Below are positions 6,780-32,880 of a stretch of 36,841 nt of DNA, piece by piece. Source of the stretch: Pseudonocardia sp. Lineage in GTDB: Bacteria > Actinomycetota > Actinomycetes > Mycobacteriales > Pseudonocardiaceae. Positions within the stretch are counted from its first letter, which is position 1. Each line of letters begins with the position of its first letter. The stretch lies in the NCBI RefSeq assembly GCF_025965585.1, contig NZ_JAOPWR010000054.1:1-36841 (forward strand). Direction: 5' to 3'. The notes below the pieces were generated by a model. That model was given only the letters and a program-made list of their open reading frames with translations, searched no databases and had not been told where the DNA came from. The translations under genes were made by a program, and so were the position numbers.

Positions 6780-7391
6780 ATGCGGTTCTACGCGGAACGC
6801 CCGCTCCGTCTCCTTCGCCAGGTGCTCGCCGACGTCCTCGTCGTGGCGTGGGTGGTGCTCGTCGTGACGGTGGCGAGGGCGGCGTACGACCTGGTCCAGC
6901 AGCTCCGGAGCCCGGCTCTGACGCTGGTGACCGCGGGCGAGGCCATCCGCAGCACGTTCGCGGGAGCGGCGGACACCGCCGGCAGGGTGCCCGTCGTCGG
7001 CGACGACCTCGCCCGCTCCCTCGGGACGGGCGCTGGTGCCGGTGCGTCGCTGGCCGCCGCGGGACGCGAGCAGGTGCAGACCGTCACCGATGCCGCGCTG
7101 GGCACCGCCGTCGGGATCGTCGTGCTCGCCGCGCTGCCGGTCGTGCTGATCTGGCTGACGGTGCGCGTGCGCTACGCGCGGGCCGCACGGTCGGCCGTCG
7201 TCGCCAGGCGGGTCGACTCCGACCTGCTGGCGCTGCGCGCCCTGGCCCACATGCCGGTGCGCAGGCTGCTGGCCCTCTCCGACGACCCGGCCGCGGCCTG
7301 GCGGCGCGACGACCGCGACGTCGTCCACCGGCTGGCCGAGCTCGAGCTGCGGTCGCTGGGCCTGCGCTCGCCGCGCGTCAGGGCGGACTGA
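6780..7391 (+). CDS. Two-helix membrane protein of unknown function
   Basis: A 203-residue protein that I do not recognise. It has a hydrophobic helix at about residues 16-36 (VLADVLVVAWVVLVVTVARA), a roughly 70-residue Gly/Ala-rich extracytoplasmic segment, a second helix at about 107-128 (VGIVVLAALPVVLIWLTV) and a basic cytoplasmic tail. The topology is therefore a hairpin with both ends inside. The ATG at 6780 lies 11 bases after the response regulator stop, so it is probably the last gene of that operon. The ORF-track start at 6351 runs inside the regulator and is rejected. Its stop abuts the stop of the convergent lipoprotein gene with no base between. It could be an accessory of the two-component system or simply a passenger. 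Confidence 0.75.
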   Translation: MRFYAERPLRLLRQVLADVLVVAWVVLVVTVARAAYDLVQQLRSPALTLVTAGEAIRSTFAGAADTAGRVPVVGDDLARSLGTGAGAGASLAAAGREQVQTVTDAALGTAVGIVVLAALPVVLIWLTVRVRYARAARSAVVARRVDSDLLALRALAHMPVRRLLALSDDPAAAWRRDDRDVVHRLAELELRSLGLRSPRVRAD

Positions 7392-8225
7392 TCACACCAC
7401 CGTGATCGTCTTGGTGTCGGTCATCGGCGGACGGCCAGCGCCGTCGGACGGGTCGTCCTCGGTGACGCGCAGCTCGTAGGTGCCGGGCTCGAGGGTGACG
7501 GTGAACGAGTACGGCGAGAACCGCTGGCCCTCAGCGGTCGACGCGGCCCCCGACCTCACGACGACCCCCTCGCGGCGCACCTCCCACGGCAGGTTCGCCT
7601 CGAACACCGCCGCCTCCCCCGACACGACGACGTCCCGTTCCACGGAGGCCCCGTTCATCGGGCTGTCGATCTGGACGAGGGAGCGCACGGCGTAGGCGTC
7701 GCCGCGGAGGACGGGTGCGGACACGTCGATCCCGCCCAGCACCGTCGCGGCCGGAGCACCGTCCACGAGCACCCGCACAGACAGGGTCGATCGCAGCACG
7801 CCCTGCACCGTGTAGACGAGCTGCTGCAGGCTCATCCGCGCCGCAGCCGGATCGGTGGCGGGTCCGGTGGCCTGCGCGGTCAGATCGACGGTGATCAGGT
7901 CGCCGGCCACCACCGGCGAGCGCAGCGCGGTGCCCGCGGGCCAGTAGGACCGGTAGTCGGGATCCAGCGCGGCGCCGAACATCTCGCGGACGGCATCGCT
8001 CGCCGCATCGGTCGTGGTGACCCGGTGGAACTCGCGCTGCAGCCGGAACCCGGCAGGCGTGGAGGCCACGTAGTAGGCGGGCAGCGCCACCACCCGGCCG
8101 GGCGCGTCCGTCGTCGTCGGACTCCCCGGGGTCGTCGGGGTCGTCGCTCCCCCCGGCGCGACCGCGGCGTCGGCGCAGCCGGCCAGCAGCACCGCGAGCA
8201 GGACCACCATCGCGATTCGTCGCAC
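7392..8225 (-). CDS. GerMN/Gmad2-domain lipoprotein
   Basis: A 277-residue secreted lipoprotein. The N-terminus MRRIAMVVLLAVLLAGC is a lipoprotein signal peptide with lipobox LAGC and Cys at residue 17, followed by a Thr/Pro-rich linker. Residues about 45-165 fit a GerMN domain (SLQQLVYTVQGVLR is typical) and about 175-277 fit the C-terminal Gmad2 immunoglobulin-like domain (IDSPMNGASVERDVVVSGEA). Actinobacterial proteins of this type sit on the outer face of the membrane and are of poorly defined function; GerM itself acts in spore germination and peptidoglycan-linked processes. GTG 8225 is chosen because GGAGG lies 8 bases upstream and the lipobox then falls at the right distance; the track ORF to 9098 is an over-extension. 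It is divergent from the carbonic-anhydrase-like gene. Confidence 0.85.
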   Translation of the reverse strand: MRRIAMVVLLAVLLAGCADAAVAPGGATTPTTPGSPTTTDAPGRVVALPAYYVASTPAGFRLQREFHRVTTTDAASDAVREMFGAALDPDYRSYWPAGTALRSPVVAGDLITVDLTAQATGPATDPAAARMSLQQLVYTVQGVLRSTLSVRVLVDGAPAATVLGGIDVSAPVLRGDAYAVRSLVQIDSPMNGASVERDVVVSGEAAVFEANLPWEVRREGVVVRSGAASTAEGQRFSPYSFTVTLEPGTYELRVTEDDPSDGAGRPPMTDTKTITVV

Positions 8226-8369
8226 CGCGATCACCTCCACCGAAGGATCGGAACCGGACCCTCGTGAGAATCTGGACGCACCCACGGGGGTCAGGTTGCC
8301 CGCGCGGGCCCTCGTCACCCGGACGGCGCGCCGGACCCACCCGGGTGGACGCGCCCCGCGGATGGCACC

Positions 8370-8903
8370 GTGTCGGTCATGCCGCTGTTCGCCTTCGAGG
8401 GCCTGGCCCCGACCGTGCATCCCGACGCGTTCGTCGCCCCGACCGCCACCCTCGTCGGCGACGTGCGCGTCGAGGCGCACGCGTCGATCTGGTACAACGC
8501 CGTGCTCCGCGCCGACTTCGGCCCGATCATCGTGCGGGAGGGGGCCAACGTGCAGGACGGCTGCGTGCTGCACGGTGGTGACGACCCCGTCACCGAGGTG
8601 GGCCGCGGCGCCACCATCGGCCACCTCTGCGTCGTGCACGGCTGCGTCATCGGCGAGGAGGCCCTCATCGGCAACGGCTCCACGATCCAGGACGGCGCGC
8701 GCATCGGCGCCCGCTGCCTGGTGGGCGCCGGCGCCACCGTCGCCCCCAACACAGTGATACCCGACGGCCAGCTGGTGCTCGGGTCGGTGGCGCGGGTGAA
8801 GGGCCCGCTGACGGAGTCGGCCCGGTGGTGGGTGGAGGGCAACCCGGAGATCTACCGGCAGCTGGCGAAGCGCCACCGCGCGTCCGTCACCCCGGTGATC
8901 CCC

Positions 8904-27256: not shown

Positions 27257-29464
27257 ATGTCCGATGAGTCCATTGTGGACCGTTTGTTCACCCGGCGGAC
27301 CATGCTGCGCGCGAGTGCTGTCGGCACCGCCGCCGTGGGCCTCACGGCCGCGCAGCAACTGATCGTGCCCTCGCTGCAGCAGAGCGGCCTGCTCTCGGCC
27401 GACGGCGTGTTCGACGGCGCCTCCATCGCGCTCGCCGACAACATCTACACCGAGGCGTTCCCGACCAGCCCGCTGATCCTCTCGCCGTTCGTCGACCCGC
27501 TGCCCGTCCCGCAGGCGCTCCGGCCGGTGGACAGGTCGGACTTCACGACCTGGCCCAGCCCGCCCGGACCGGGCGAGGGCCAGCAGAACTCCCTGGGCAA
27601 CGAGAAGCACCAGTGCTGGTCCGACGACCAGAGGGTCCGGTCCCCCGACCCGATCGTCTACAAGATCGACGTCAAGGTGGACCAGCACGCGTTCACCTCC
27701 TCGCAGGTGCTCCCGATCGACACCTTCGGCCAGCCCGCCGTGTCCTTCGACGCATCCGGCAAGACGTACCCCGCGGGCCTGCTGCGCACCCTGCCCAACA
27801 GCACGATCTACGGCTTCAACGGGACCTTCCCCGGCCCGATGATCAATGCCGAGTACGGCAAGCCTGCGCTCGTGCGGTTCACGAACATGCTCGACGAGAA
27901 CCCGCTCAACCTCGACCGCCAGGACTTCGGGACACCCGACCTGTCGTTCCTCACCCACCTGCACAACGGCCACACCGCACCCGAGAGCGACGGCAACCCG
28001 CACTACTCGATGACGCGGGGCCCGAAGCACCACGGCTATCTGCCGAAGCAGTGGGTGGACAACCTCTACCTGAACTGGCCCGCGGCCAGCGACGATCGCG
28101 AGAAGCAGAGCTTCTTCTGGTTCCACGACCACCGGATGGACCACACCGGCTCGAACGTCTACAAGGGACTCGTCGGTCTCTACCCGATCTACGACCCGAA
28201 GCCGATGGGCTCGGCCGGCATGACCGACGGCGGCGACGAGCGCCAGGGCCTGCGCCTGCCCGGGGTCCGCACGAACAACTCGAACGGCTCGTTCGACGTC
28301 AGGTACGACATCCCGCTGGCCTTCTACGACACGCGTCTCGACGACGGCGTCACGCTGCACAACGACATCCACGACTCGGAGTTCAAGGGCGTCAAGAACC
28401 CGGCCAAGCACCCCGAGTGGTGGGGCAAGACCTTCTTCAAGCACTTCCCCAACCACGGCTTCACCGGCGACATCTTCACCGTCAACGGCACGGCTTACCC
28501 AGTGCTGCGCGTGAAGCGCCGCAAGTACCGCTTCCGCTTCCTGGACGCGTCGATCTCCCGGATCTACGAGTTCAAGCTGATGACCTCCACGCAGGGCCCG
28601 AAGTCGGCGGTGTCGCTCGGCCTGCAGGGCACCGAGCTGCAGGGCCAGTACCGCATCCCGGACGGGCAGCAGTGCATGCGGTTCATGCAGGTGGCCTCCG
28701 ACGGCGGGCTCGTGCCGTTCGCGTTCAAGCGCGACTCGTTCGAGCTGTGGCCGGCCAAGCGGCGCGAGATGGTGGTCGACTTCATGACCTACCAGGACGG
28801 TTCGCCGACCAGCCCGGGTGACGTCATCTACCTGACCAACGTCATGAAGATGCCCGACGGCCGGATGTGGAGCAACTCGTCGCGCTTCCTGCCCGACCCG
28901 AACTACAAGGTGCCCATGATCAAGATCATCATCGACGACGGACCGCCGGAGCGGGACGACAGCATCGTCTTCGACCAGAAGCCGCTGCGCGCACTGCCTC
29001 CGCTGCCGAGCAACTGGCAGAGCATGCTGGACAACCGGCTGATCTTCGAGGTGAAGCGCGGCAGCGCAGGCGGCGAGACCGAGTGGCTGATCAACGACAA
29101 GCCGTTCGACCCCTTGGTCAACGCCACGAGCCTGAAGAACAAGGCGGGCAGGACACCGCTGGCGCAGCAGAAGATGGGCAGCTTCAACCTGTGGGAGATC
29201 CGCAACGGCGGCGGGGGCTGGGTGCACCCGTTCCACCTCCACATGGAGGAGCACCGCACCGTCATGCGCAACAACAAGGACGTCACCGCCTCGAGCCCGG
29301 GACACCCCGACGACGTCTCCCGCGAGGATCTCGTGGCGCTCGACCCGAGCGAGTCGGTGATCATCTACCGCGGGTTCCGTGACTTCGTCGGACCGTACGT
29401 CGCGCACTGCCACAACCTGGCGCACGAGGACCACGCGATGATGTTCGGCTGGGAGATCACGTAA
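27257..29464 (+). CDS. Tat-exported multicopper oxidase
   Basis: A 735-residue multicopper oxidase with all four copper motifs. The trinuclear site residues are HLHNGH near 234-239, WFHDH near 290-292, HPFHLH at 657-662 and HCHNLAHEDHAM at 717-728; the last also supplies the type 1 copper Cys718, His723 and axial Met728. The N-terminus carries a Tat-like signal TRRTMLRASAVGTAAVG at about residues 14-30. It should oxidise an organic or metal substrate outside the membrane with reduction of oxygen to water. At over 700 residues it is longer than usual CotA/laccase types (about 500), with insertions around residues 300-400. ATG 27257 has AAAGGA upstream and puts the signal at the start. It leads a run of same-strand genes to 32880. 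Confidence 0.92.
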   Translation: MSDESIVDRLFTRRTMLRASAVGTAAVGLTAAQQLIVPSLQQSGLLSADGVFDGASIALADNIYTEAFPTSPLILSPFVDPLPVPQALRPVDRSDFTTWPSPPGPGEGQQNSLGNEKHQCWSDDQRVRSPDPIVYKIDVKVDQHAFTSSQVLPIDTFGQPAVSFDASGKTYPAGLLRTLPNSTIYGFNGTFPGPMINAEYGKPALVRFTNMLDENPLNLDRQDFGTPDLSFLTHLHNGHTAPESDGNPHYSMTRGPKHHGYLPKQWVDNLYLNWPAASDDREKQSFFWFHDHRMDHTGSNVYKGLVGLYPIYDPKPMGSAGMTDGGDERQGLRLPGVRTNNSNGSFDVRYDIPLAFYDTRLDDGVTLHNDIHDSEFKGVKNPAKHPEWWGKTFFKHFPNHGFTGDIFTVNGTAYPVLRVKRRKYRFRFLDASISRIYEFKLMTSTQGPKSAVSLGLQGTELQGQYRIPDGQQCMRFMQVASDGGLVPFAFKRDSFELWPAKRREMVVDFMTYQDGSPTSPGDVIYLTNVMKMPDGRMWSNSSRFLPDPNYKVPMIKIIIDDGPPERDDSIVFDQKPLRALPPLPSNWQSMLDNRLIFEVKRGSAGGETEWLINDKPFDPLVNATSLKNKAGRTPLAQQKMGSFNLWEIRNGGGGWVHPFHLHMEEHRTVMRNNKDVTASSPGHPDDVSREDLVALDPSESVIIYRGFRDFVGPYVAHCHNLAHEDHAMMFGWEIT

Positions 29465-29507
29465 GAGCCCCGTCCGACGCCTCTCACCCCGACGAGCGGG
29501 AGCTCCC

Positions 29508-30122
29508 ATGTCGATCGGCCTCGCCACGGAACGACTCGGTTCCGTCCGCCGCGCACTGCCCGTCCACTGGCCGACCGCGGTCGCGCTGGGCGTGGTCCTG
29601 GCCTACGCCGACGGGTTCTGGCTGACGTCCGTGCAGGAGGCGGTCGGTGCCATCCAGCGGGTCCGGAGCCCGTTCGCCAACTGGCTGCTGCACTCGACCC
29701 TGATGCTGCCCGTGTTCCTGGTCGCCGTGGTCGGGGCGCTGGCGCTCGCCCGCCGGCGTTTCGACGCGGCGCCGTACACCCCGGCGAGGACCGCGGCGGC
29801 GGCGGCGCTGGTGGTCGCGGCGGCCACGCTGGTGGGAGTCGTCCAGGTCACGGCGAGTGCCCTCTACGACTACCAGCTGCAGCTGGCGGAGCTTCAGCAG
29901 ACCCGGTCCTCCCACTTCCACTCGCTCACGCCGGACCCGGTGGGCACCTGCGGGGCGGAGTGCGTCGCGCAGAACCTCACCTTCGAGACCGACGTTCGGG
30001 CGGTCCTCTACGTGGCCGCGGTCCTGCTCGTCACCAACGTCGTGGCCGTCGGCTGGATCGTCGCGATGCGCGGCGGCCGCGTTGATGCCCTCCGGCGTTC
30101 CGCGGCCGCTACGGAGGCCTGA
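29508..30122 (+). CDS. Four-helix membrane protein with a His/Cys extracytoplasmic loop
   Basis: A 204-residue membrane protein that I do not recognise. Helices are at about residues 22-42, 63-81, 96-118 and 164-186. Positive charges (RR at 14, ARRR at 81, RR at 196) put both ends inside. The 45-residue loop between helices 3 and 4 is then outside and carries His136, His138, Cys148 and Cys152 (SHFHSL, GTCGAEC), suited to bind metal or form a disulfide. GGGAG lies 6 bases before the ATG at 29508, 43 bases after the multicopper oxidase. A role as a membrane partner of that oxidase is an inference from order and from the loop facing the same compartment. Confidence 0.75.
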   Translation: MSIGLATERLGSVRRALPVHWPTAVALGVVLAYADGFWLTSVQEAVGAIQRVRSPFANWLLHSTLMLPVFLVAVVGALALARRRFDAAPYTPARTAAAAALVVAAATLVGVVQVTASALYDYQLQLAELQQTRSSHFHSLTPDPVGTCGAECVAQNLTFETDVRAVLYVAAVLLVTNVVAVGWIVAMRGGRVDALRRSAAATEA

Positions 30123-30124
30123 CC

Positions 30125-30598
30125 ATGACCACCCACGTCGATCCCGAAGCCGTCGCGATCCGGCCCGACCGCCGCCGAGCGGTCGGCACGATCGCCCTGG
30201 TGGCGGCGGGTGCGCTGCACGTCGCGGTCGCCCTCGACTACCTCGGCCACGAGGTCCGGCTCTTCGCTCTGTTCGTCGCGGCCGGCGCGGTGCAGCTCGT
30301 CCTCGGACCACGCCTGTGGAGGGGGAGCCGCCCGCGGCGGGACGTGGCCGTGATCGCCGTGACCGCCGCGCTGTTCCTCGTGGACGTCTACGTCCGCAAC
30401 GTCGGGCTGCCGATCGGGCCGACCGGCCCGCGTCCCGATCCCGACCTGCTCGGGATCGGGCTGGTCCTGGGCGGCGTCGTCGCCCTCGCGGCTCTCCCGG
30501 CGACGCTGCCGCCCCGCGCGCGGTTCTGGACGACCGGTGCGCTCGCCGTAATCGCCGTCGGCGTCTGGTCGCTCTGGGTGGCGGGCACGCTCGTCTGA
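30125..30598 (+). CDS. Five-helix membrane protein, unrecognised
   Basis: A 157-residue polytopic protein with hydrophobic helices at about residues 19-38, 44-63, 73-91, 108-127 and 134-155. It has a basic N-terminus (RPDRRRAV) and a Pro-rich external loop (GLPIGPTGPRPDPD). No family is recognised. It begins 2 bases after the previous stop, so the two membrane proteins are co-translated and may form one complex. The start ATG 30125 follows from that spacing. Confidence 0.75.
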   Translation: MTTHVDPEAVAIRPDRRRAVGTIALVAAGALHVAVALDYLGHEVRLFALFVAAGAVQLVLGPRLWRGSRPRRDVAVIAVTAALFLVDVYVRNVGLPIGPTGPRPDPDLLGIGLVLGGVVALAALPATLPPRARFWTTGALAVIAVGVWSLWVAGTLV

Positions 30599-30604
30599 TA
30601 CCGG

Positions 30605-30621
30605 ACCTCGCCGGCCGAGGT
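30605..30621. terminator. Short hairpin between the membrane-protein pair and the HAD gene
   Basis: ACCTCG and CGAGGT pair around CCGGC, 7 bases after the stop. It is small, so it may attenuate rather than stop transcription, or be chance. Confidence 0.3.
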
Positions 30622-30635
30622 GCTAGGAACGGGCT

Positions 30636-31421
30636 GTGGATGACGTGCGCGGGGTGCTGCTCGACATCGACGGCGTGCTGACGGTCTCCTGGGAGCCGCT
30701 GCCCGGAGCCGTCGACGCGGTCCGGGCCGTCCGGGAGGCGGGCCTGCCGGTGGTGCTCCTGACCAACACGACATCGCGCACGAGGGCAGGCACGGCCCGC
30801 GTCCTCGCCGACGCCGGGTTCCCCGTCGGGCCCGACGAGATCCTGACGGCCACCGCGGCCACCGCCGCCCACCTGCGGGAACACCACCCGGACGCGCGCT
30901 GCCTGCTCCTCAACAGCGGGGACGTCACCGACGACCTCGACGGTGTCCACCTGGTCCCCTCCCACGCCGACCCCGAGGTCGTGGTGCTGGGCGGGGCGGG
31001 GCCAGAGTTCGGCTACGAGGCCCTGAACGACGTCTTCGGGCACCTCCAGCGCGGTGCGCAGCTGGTCGCCATGCACCGCAACCTCTACTGGCGCACCGAC
31101 GAGGGTCTGCAGCTCGACACCGGTGCGTTGCTGCGCGGCCTGGAGGAGGCGGCCGGCGTCGAGGCGGTCGTGGTGGGCAAGCCCGCCGGCACGTTCTTCG
31201 ACGCCGCACGGCGGGCACTCGGGGTGTCGGGCGACGGCGTCGTCATGGTCGGCGACGACCTCGGCAGCGACGTCCTGGGCGCCCAGGACAACGGGATCAC
31301 CGGTGTCCTCGTCCGCACCGGCAAATACCGGCCGTCCGACGAGGACGGCACGGACGGCAGGCGGCCGGACCACGTCATCGACTCGATCGCCGACCTCCCC
31401 GGACTGCTCGGCATCGGCTGA
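30636..31421 (+). CDS. HAD-IIA family phosphatase
   Basis: A 261-residue HAD hydrolase of subclass IIA (NagD/LHPP-like). Motif I is LLDIDGVL with both aspartates, motif II LLTNTTSRTR, motif III Lys in VVVGKPAGTFF, and motif IV MVGDDLGSDVLGAQDNG. The cap lies between motifs II and III, as subclass IIA requires. LHPP-type enzymes release phosphate from phospho-amino acids or pyrophosphate; the substrate here is unknown. GTG 30636 has AGGA 7 bases upstream. It lies 37 bases after the membrane-protein pair and is probably part of the same run. Confidence 0.88.
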   Translation: MDDVRGVLLDIDGVLTVSWEPLPGAVDAVRAVREAGLPVVLLTNTTSRTRAGTARVLADAGFPVGPDEILTATAATAAHLREHHPDARCLLLNSGDVTDDLDGVHLVPSHADPEVVVLGGAGPEFGYEALNDVFGHLQRGAQLVAMHRNLYWRTDEGLQLDTGALLRGLEEAAGVEAVVVGKPAGTFFDAARRALGVSGDGVVMVGDDLGSDVLGAQDNGITGVLVRTGKYRPSDEDGTDGRRPDHVIDSIADLPGLLGIG

Positions 31422-31558
31422 CCGCGGCCAGGCGCCGGAGCCGGCGTCGCTCCCGGCCCGAGATCGACCCCGCGGAGTCGCACGATGAGACAGCCGGCGC
31501 CCGACCGAGGTGGGACGGTGCGCGAGTTGCGATGTGGCAGCCAGGAGCAGGAGCCTTC

Positions 31559-32518
31559 ATGTCGGGTACCGATCACCAGCGCGGCGCCGCGACCTCCGGC
31601 GGGCCCTCCCGCCTGACCACCTGGCATCACGAGGCGTTCTCCGCGGTCGAGCGCTGGAAGTGGCTGCACGCCCTCAACGACCGCGTGTCGGCGGTGACGC
31701 TGCCGCTGTACGACAGGTACCGGGGCAACCTGGCCGTCGAGCTCATGCACGGTGGCCGGTGGGCCGGGCACTCCGTCCACGCGGCGCTGTCCGACCTGCC
31801 GATCGGGTTGTGGTCGGGCACCCTCGTGCTCGACATGTTCGGCAAGGACCGCGCGGACGACGGCGGCCGGATGGATCCCGCGGCCACGCTGAGCGCGGCC
31901 GGTCTCGTCGCGGCGGCGGCCACGATCGCCACCGGCGTCACCGACTGGAACGTCAGCGACGGCGACGACCGCAGGGTCGGGCTGTTCCACGGGCTGCTGA
32001 ACCTCGCAGGCAGCGCGCTCCAGGCCGCCTCGCTGGCGGCGCGGCTGTCGGGGCACCGGCCCTCCGCCCGCGCGCTCGCCATGACCAGCATGACCGTCAC
32101 CGCGGCTGCCGGGTTCGTCGGCGGACATCTCGTGCAGGGCAAGGCGGTCATGGTGAACCGCGTGGCTACGACCACCGGCCCCAGCCGATGGGTGCGCGCG
32201 ATCGCCGAGACCGACCTCGCCGACGGTGCGTCGACCGGCGTGGTGGTCGAGGGCAGGCAGATCCTGCTGCACCGCGACGGCGAGCAGGTGCACGCGCTGG
32301 ACGACCTCTGCAGCCACGCCGGCGGCTTGCTCAGCCGCGGCGAGATCACCGGTTGCGTCGTCGCGTGCCCGCTGCACGAGTCGCTGTTCGACCTCCGGGA
32401 CGGCCACATCGTGCGCGGTCCCGCCCATCACCCCCAGCCCGTCCTGCCGACGCGCATCCGCAACGGCTGGATCGAGGTACGGGGCTCCCAGCCCCGGTCC
32501 CGGCGCGCGACGACCTAG
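31559..32518 (+). CDS. DUF2231-Rieske fusion protein
   Basis: A 319-residue fusion. Residues about 40-190 fit DUF2231, a four-helix membrane domain: HSVHAALSDLPIGLWSGTLVLDMFG, AATLSAAGLVAAAATIATGVTDW, LFHGLLNLAGSALQAASL and TSMTVTAAAGFVGGHL. Residues about 205-310 are a Rieske domain with C251-x-H253 (CSHAGG) and C270-x2-H273 (CPLHES), so one [2Fe-2S] cluster is expected. His residues in the helices (HSVHAAL, LFHG, GGHL) could ligate haem, by analogy with other DUF2231 proteins; this is inference. AGGAG lies 5 bases before the ATG at 31559. It is followed 8 bases on by a second Rieske gene, which suggests an electron-transfer chain. Confidence 0.88.
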   Translation: MSGTDHQRGAATSGGPSRLTTWHHEAFSAVERWKWLHALNDRVSAVTLPLYDRYRGNLAVELMHGGRWAGHSVHAALSDLPIGLWSGTLVLDMFGKDRADDGGRMDPAATLSAAGLVAAAATIATGVTDWNVSDGDDRRVGLFHGLLNLAGSALQAASLAARLSGHRPSARALAMTSMTVTAAAGFVGGHLVQGKAVMVNRVATTTGPSRWVRAIAETDLADGASTGVVVEGRQILLHRDGEQVHALDDLCSHAGGLLSRGEITGCVVACPLHESLFDLRDGHIVRGPAHHPQPVLPTRIRNGWIEVRGSQPRSRRATT

Positions 32519-32526
32519 GAGGACAC

Positions 32527-32880
32527 ATGGCTTGGGAAGCGGTAGCGGATCTCGACCAGCTCGAGGAGGGCGACATGATGCTCGTCCAGCTTGGCGAGCC
32601 GGTCTGCGTCGTCCGTCTCTACGAGGACGAGGCGGTCGCCGTGCACAACACGTGCACGCACCAGCAGCAGCCCCTCAACGAGGGCTACCTGCAGGAGGAC
32701 GACACGCTGATCTGCCCGGCGCACAACTCCTGCTTCGACCTCCGGACGGGCGAGCCGCGCGGGGTGCCGGCCGTGGCCCCGATCCCCGTGTACGCCTGCA
32801 AGATCGAGGACGGCGCGATCTGGGTGGACATGGAGCAGCAGCTCAACGATGCCGCGATCCCGCACAAGCCCTACCACTGA
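32527..32880 (+). CDS. Rieske-type [2Fe-2S] ferredoxin
   Basis: A 117-residue single-domain Rieske ferredoxin of the biphenyl-dioxygenase ferredoxin/NirD type. Cluster ligands are C43-x-H45 in NTCTHQQQ and C63-x2-H66 in ICPAHNSCFD, and the start WEAVADLDQLEEGDMM is typical. No signal is present, so it is cytoplasmic. Such proteins pass electrons to an oxygenase or another redox enzyme, but no oxygenase is in sight. GGAGG lies 4 bases before the ATG at 32527. The gene directly follows the DUF2231-Rieske fusion. Confidence 0.9.
   Translation: MAWEAVADLDQLEEGDMMLVQLGEPVCVVRLYEDEAVAVHNTCTHQQQPLNEGYLQEDDTLICPAHNSCFDLRTGEPRGVPAVAPIPVYACKIEDGAIWVDMEQQLNDAAIPHKPYH

Follow-up and report, generated by a model that had tools for sequence, protein, structure and literature searches.

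In Rhodobacter capsulatus, production of the exported multicopper oxidase CutO requires CutF, a protein with a CxxxC motif (PMC8456105, PMC9973294). In Bacillus, the proteins MnxE and MnxF bind copper and are required by the multicopper oxidase MnxG (PMC5622069). Here we compare with these systems a locus from Pseudonocardia sp. that lies in a 36,841 nucleotide stretch of DNA (contig NZ_JAOPWR010000054.1), which was analysed as a whole and is called the window in the following. From this locus and its relatives we find that undescribed membrane proteins accompany exported copper oxidases across several bacterial lineages. No description of the two membrane families concerned was found in the literature, most subscription journals lying outside the scope of the search.

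The locus consists of six genes on the same strand (27257-32880) that are separated, in order, by 43, 2, 37, 137 and 8 bp. An earlier note on this DNA had described exactly this arrangement and had named the products as a Tat-type multicopper oxidase, two unassigned polytopic membrane proteins of 204 and 157 residues, a HAD phosphatase, a DUF2231-Rieske fusion and a free Rieske ferredoxin. All these assignments held. Family-model searches placed the HAD product in TIGR01458/HAD-IIA and confirmed both Rieske proteins; for the two membrane proteins, which are polytopic, no Pfam or NCBIfam match above cut-off was obtained. The proposal that the six genes form a single redox cluster stood in part: neighbourhoods and fusions tie the membrane proteins to the oxidase, but not the HAD and the two Rieske genes. 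The unit that goes beyond chance is the oxidase with the membrane proteins, not all six genes. Its core is the oxidase and the 204-residue protein, with the 157-residue protein as a looser third component. Recent acquisition of foreign DNA, as judged by composition, was rejected. GC3 is uniformly high (0.87-0.96), such that the GC dip of the oxidase gene stems from its amino-acid make-up. The assembly is rated as 5% contaminated; a contaminant contig is spoken against by a neighbouring aldehyde dehydrogenase that is 79-82% identical in genomes of the same genus.

The first gene (27257-29464, + strand) encodes the oxidase, a CotA-like protein of 735 residues (P0001). It matches Pfam Cu-oxidase_2 and Cu-oxidase_3 and carries an RR signal at its N-terminus, with a Tat model score below the cut-off. 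The copper ligands are complete (H234/H236, H290/H292, H657/H660/H662 and H717-C718-H719/H723/M728). The cupredoxin fold together with the four motifs HxH, HxH, HxxHxH and HCHxxxHxxxxM places the protein in the CotA/bilirubin oxidase group of the multicopper oxidases. BoxA of Arthrobacter sp. QXT-31 is likewise a CotA-group oxidase. Across 35 relatives of the window oxidase the motifs HLH, HDH, HPxHLH and HCHxxxHxxxxM are invariant. The best PDB match of the structure model was CotA laccase (E 7e-35, ~22% identity, long insertions). Against the NCBIfam CueO equivalog the protein scored 90 bits at a cut-off of 525, and the MnxG model NF041487 gave no match. Cu(I), Mn(II) or another donor may serve as its natural substrate, metal oxidation being considered more likely than oxidation of phenolics.

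The second gene (29508-30122, + strand) encodes the 204-residue membrane protein (P0002), which its conserved neighbourhood marks as the dedicated partner of the oxidase. A genome scan yielded 78 loci with oxidase relatives and flanks of up to 10 kb, in whose open reading frames we located family members by iterative searches. A gene of the 204-residue family was present at 54 of these loci, at 52 of them within 700 bp downstream of the oxidase. In Actinomycetota, every one of the 41 oxidase-carrying genomes contained an oxidase partnered with a 204-residue relative (46 of 53 loci). Seven copies have no partner; all of them are additional paralogues in four Arthrobacter genomes, each of which has a partnered copy as well. 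In these Arthrobacter sets (L012/L013/L048, L014/L046/L049/L054, L016/L022 and L019/L024) only one of the two to four oxidase paralogues is partnered, and a single membrane partner may serve several oxidases. Most Chloroflexota oxidase loci also contain a 204-residue relative, often in a shortened form that lacks the loop region described below. In other phyla covered by the 78-locus survey the oxidase occurs without this partner. At 25 loci the 204- and 157-residue families are fused into one protein of ~380 residues that keeps the gene order of the window.

The linkage was also seen from the side of the membrane protein. A profile of the 204-residue family gave strong matches in 2 of 347 Actinomycetota genomes and in 2 of 111 genomes of a second family, in each set the only two genomes with the oxidase. 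As one genome is common to both sets, the strong matches stem from three genomes overall. All other matches were weak (E 6e-5 to 6e-4), and thus no strong homologue without an oxidase was found in either set. Within the genus the oxidase occurs in 2 of 62 genomes, and among 151 sampled genomes of the window's own family only in the window's own genome. Such a patchy distribution fits horizontal transfer, although the tree did not point to a source.

The 204-residue family has a loop before the last helix, in which Met, His and Cys make up 13.4% of the residues compared to 2.7% in the rest of the family (Fisher p 3e-69, with the related sequences not being independent). In the window this putative copper-binding loop spans residues 125-166 (29880-30005, + strand) and contains the motifs HFH and CGAEC. 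The latter is of the CX3C type, which occurs in the loop of 30 of 49 members, among them the window protein. In the other 19 members CX3C is absent, and most of those retain His and Met, as seen for the Arthrobacter members, which have no Cys. By the positive-inside rule the loop is predicted to face outward, i.e. to lie on the same side of the membrane as the exported oxidase. The module comprises 4 to 9 helices with strongly conserved residues. For the fused membrane protein an all-helical structure was predicted with confidence (pLDDT 84.8), which gave no significant match in the PDB and no fold hinting at a function. TctB and 7TMR-DISM came up for the membrane proteins below cut-off and were rejected, as was a circular tendon repeat protein matched in the PDB by the membrane-family query A1, which we judged a composition artefact. 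Kinship of the two membrane families was rejected as well (hhalign probability 0.4%).

The third gene (30125-30598, + strand) encodes the 157-residue membrane protein. Its family is broader, with matches in 64 of the 347 Actinomycetota genomes. At 9 of the 20 top-scoring loci, which were chosen as best scoring and are thus not a random sample, a multicopper oxidase adjoins the family member or resides in the same polypeptide. CueO-like oxidases of ~525 residues adjoin it in L138, L139, L141, L145 and L148, another multicopper oxidase lies near it in L143, and in L135 it is fused to a two-domain oxidase. A 157-residue-like domain furthermore forms the N-terminus of giant proteins (L136, L139, L141, L142, L145 and L148). 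One of these, with 2091 residues, matched MnxG in the PDB (E 8e-220), and two matched the MnxG model NF041487 with E ~3e-122 to 5e-122, below its equivalog cut-off. In the giants the domain is followed by a 204-residue-like segment (E 1.4e-9 in L148 and 4e-4 in L136, by alignment only in the others), such that the order is reversed with respect to the window. The MnxG-type giants of Actinomycetota (e.g. L145:7231-13506) are manganese-oxidase relatives with a membrane module of their own.

Both types of pairing can be found side by side. At one locus (L044:9971-15012) a long oxidase, a 204-residue type, a short oxidase and a 157-residue type follow each other on one strand. The genome of the window itself carries on contig C334 (L009) a 525-residue oxidase followed by a 157-residue paralogue of 41-43% identity; this pair (6831-8902), the oxidase of which is CueO-like, is located, by eye, between NarL-type two-component genes and hydrogenase-maturation-like genes. 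Two genomes of the genus each encode, within 3-5 kb of a multicopper oxidase, a Tat-type Rieske protein and a response regulator of NarL type, the latter very similar between the two (L009:11754-13749 and L172:3272-4898). Several 157-residue relatives possess His-rich tails or extra His-rich domains (L131:6086-7489, L140:5895-6644 and L143:5844-6692). The copy in the window has lost several near-invariant residues of the family, e.g. by the changes H39Y and E117G, and may therefore be decaying or altered in function.

In other phyla members of the oxidase family have metal-efflux genes as neighbours. CusB-type proteins follow oxidase relatives in Acidobacteria and others. L061, L064 and L084 encode CusB-type fusion proteins downstream of the oxidase, in which a domain scan showed a heavy-metal-binding and a YHS domain; in L069 and L072 the downstream products were judged to be of this type from their N-terminal sequence. 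An RND pump is also encoded downstream in L061, where it was confirmed, and in L064. Di-haem CCP/MauG proteins were found downstream of the oxidase in Nitrospirota, Nitrosospira and Chloroflexota; those in L070, L073, L081 and L055 are large, with 790-940 residues.

If the six genes acted together, the membrane and Rieske proteins could relay electrons between the exported copper enzyme and the cytoplasm or membrane. Rieske proteins and multicopper oxidases both carry single electrons, and the common strand and the short junctions favour such a relay. Against it, homologues of the HAD, DUF2231-Rieske and Rieske genes were found at none of the 78 oxidase loci (flanks of up to 10 kb). Another genome of the genus, G659, encodes the oxidase at 79% identity together with the 204-residue protein, and within ~8 kb of this oxidase no 157-residue, HAD or DUF2231-Rieske gene was found. 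A short Rieske-like open reading frame upstream matches P0005 and P0006 weakly. Relatives of the DUF2231-Rieske gene were seen in 20 further genomes of the window's family, with no oxidase, 204-residue, 157-residue or HAD relative within 1.5 kb, whereas the oxidase was found in no other of the 151 family genomes sampled. On the strength of the 78 loci and G659 we reject the HAD and both Rieske genes as parts of the module and take the HAD phosphatase, the DUF2231-Rieske protein and the Rieske ferredoxin for chance neighbours. Since, in addition, no haem, flavin or iron-sulphur motif was seen in the membrane proteins, we regard the six-gene relay as highly improbable. The earlier idea of an electron link through the membrane proteins found no positive support, and the conserved Met/His/Cys loop points to the handling of a metal more than to a relay by haem, flavin or iron-sulphur groups. 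The link between membrane proteins and oxidase proposed in the same place is backed more strongly than sequence alone could tell (52 of 78 loci, 41 of 41 Actinomycetota genomes). Homologues occurring mostly without the oxidase, which would have spoken against this link, were looked for and not found for the 204-residue protein. A check of neighbourhoods, as the earlier note had suggested, thus gave co-occurrence of this protein with the oxidase and of many 157-residue relatives with other multicopper oxidases, while the DUF2231-Rieske gene was absent.

What the membrane module does for the oxidase can be read in several ways. We see about even chances that it handles a metal, most likely copper, for the exported enzyme. 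The Tat-exported CotA-like oxidase would then work outside the membrane, served by one or two polytopic proteins. The loop of the 204-residue protein would bind Cu(I) at the outer membrane face. The protein could then either load the copper sites of the oxidase or offer it Cu(I) as a substrate, and the helices of the 204-residue protein may hold the oxidase near the membrane in a physical complex. A similar role as second partner would fall to the 157-residue protein. Copper handling is favoured by the linkage across genomes, the gene fusions, the Met/His/Cys loop, the His-rich tails of 157-residue relatives, the CusB-type neighbours and the CutF precedent; it is weakened by the lack of CX3C in 19 of 49 members, the shortened Chloroflexota forms without the loop region, the partnerless oxidases, the loss of near-invariant residues from the 157-residue copy in the window and the lack of a known-fold match. 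The membrane proteins could instead merely anchor or dock the secreted oxidase, with a structural loop (disulphide or interface) and no role for a metal. Direct fusions of the same domains to oxidase domains, as in L135 and the MnxG-type giants, have the form expected of an anchor, and CX3C could be a disulphide. However, a module of several helices with strongly conserved residues and a His/Met-rich loop exceeds the needs of an anchor, and the Arthrobacter loops keep His and Met but have no Cys, which renders pure anchoring rather unlikely. An oxidation of Mn(II) outside the cell, with the membrane proteins binding or delivering manganese or accepting the products in the manner of the MnxG accessories, appears quite unlikely. 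It draws on the two membrane families at the N-terminus of the MnxG-type giants and on BoxA, which is listed with the Mn(II)-oxidising proteins that have been characterised by experiment (PMC12896264). The window oxidase is, however, CotA-like and without a match to the MnxG model, Met and Cys ligands suit Cu(I) better than Mn(II), and the wider oxidase context includes copper/heavy-metal efflux.

More generally, the two families might be a membrane partner module of exported multicopper oxidases of CotA-like, CueO-like and MnxG type that passes copper, substrate metal or electrons between the membrane and the enzyme, which we consider a tentative possibility. If true, the oxidation of metals by bacteria of these lineages would be coupled to the membrane. 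For two families without Pfam or NCBIfam match, partnership with exported copper oxidases thus becomes a likely role. The fusions tie both of them to manganese oxidases of MnxG type, an enzyme group whose accessory proteins are little understood. Copper supply, or membrane retention, of exported oxidases in Gram-positive bacteria thereby becomes a testable question.

Among the described systems, the CotA laccase/bilirubin oxidase group shares the fold and the copper ligands of the oxidase. The window protein differs by its length of 735 residues with N-terminal extension and insertions, by its membrane partner and by the missing spore context. With CueO/Cus the locus has in common an exported oxidase, CusB-type proteins beside oxidase relatives and a CueO-like oxidase paired with the 157-residue family, although no efflux genes were identified at the window locus. 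In MnxEFG a multicopper oxidase likewise comes with obligatory copper-binding accessory proteins, and the MnxG-type giants of some Actinomycetota include fused 157- and 204-residue-like segments. In contrast to MnxG the window oxidase is CotA-like, and MnxE and MnxF are of ~12 kDa; the membrane queries A1 and A2 did not match them in a PDB set that may not include MnxE/F chains. CutF-CutO(-CutG) resembles the module as a Tat-exported multicopper oxidase that relies on a protein encoded beside it, which lies outside the cytoplasm and bears a CxxxC copper motif, provided that the 204-residue protein is placed with its loop outward as predicted. CutF, however, is a small, Sec-exported DUF2946 protein that is encoded upstream of the oxidase and takes part in translational control, whereas the 204-residue protein is polytopic and encoded downstream, not immediately upstream, of the oxidase; neither this protein nor the 33 aligned members of both membrane families matched Pfam, DUF2946 included. 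By the tests made the module is not a member of the CutF-CutO system and probably not of MnxEFG, yet we infer that it works like CutF-CutO or MnxEF-MnxG.
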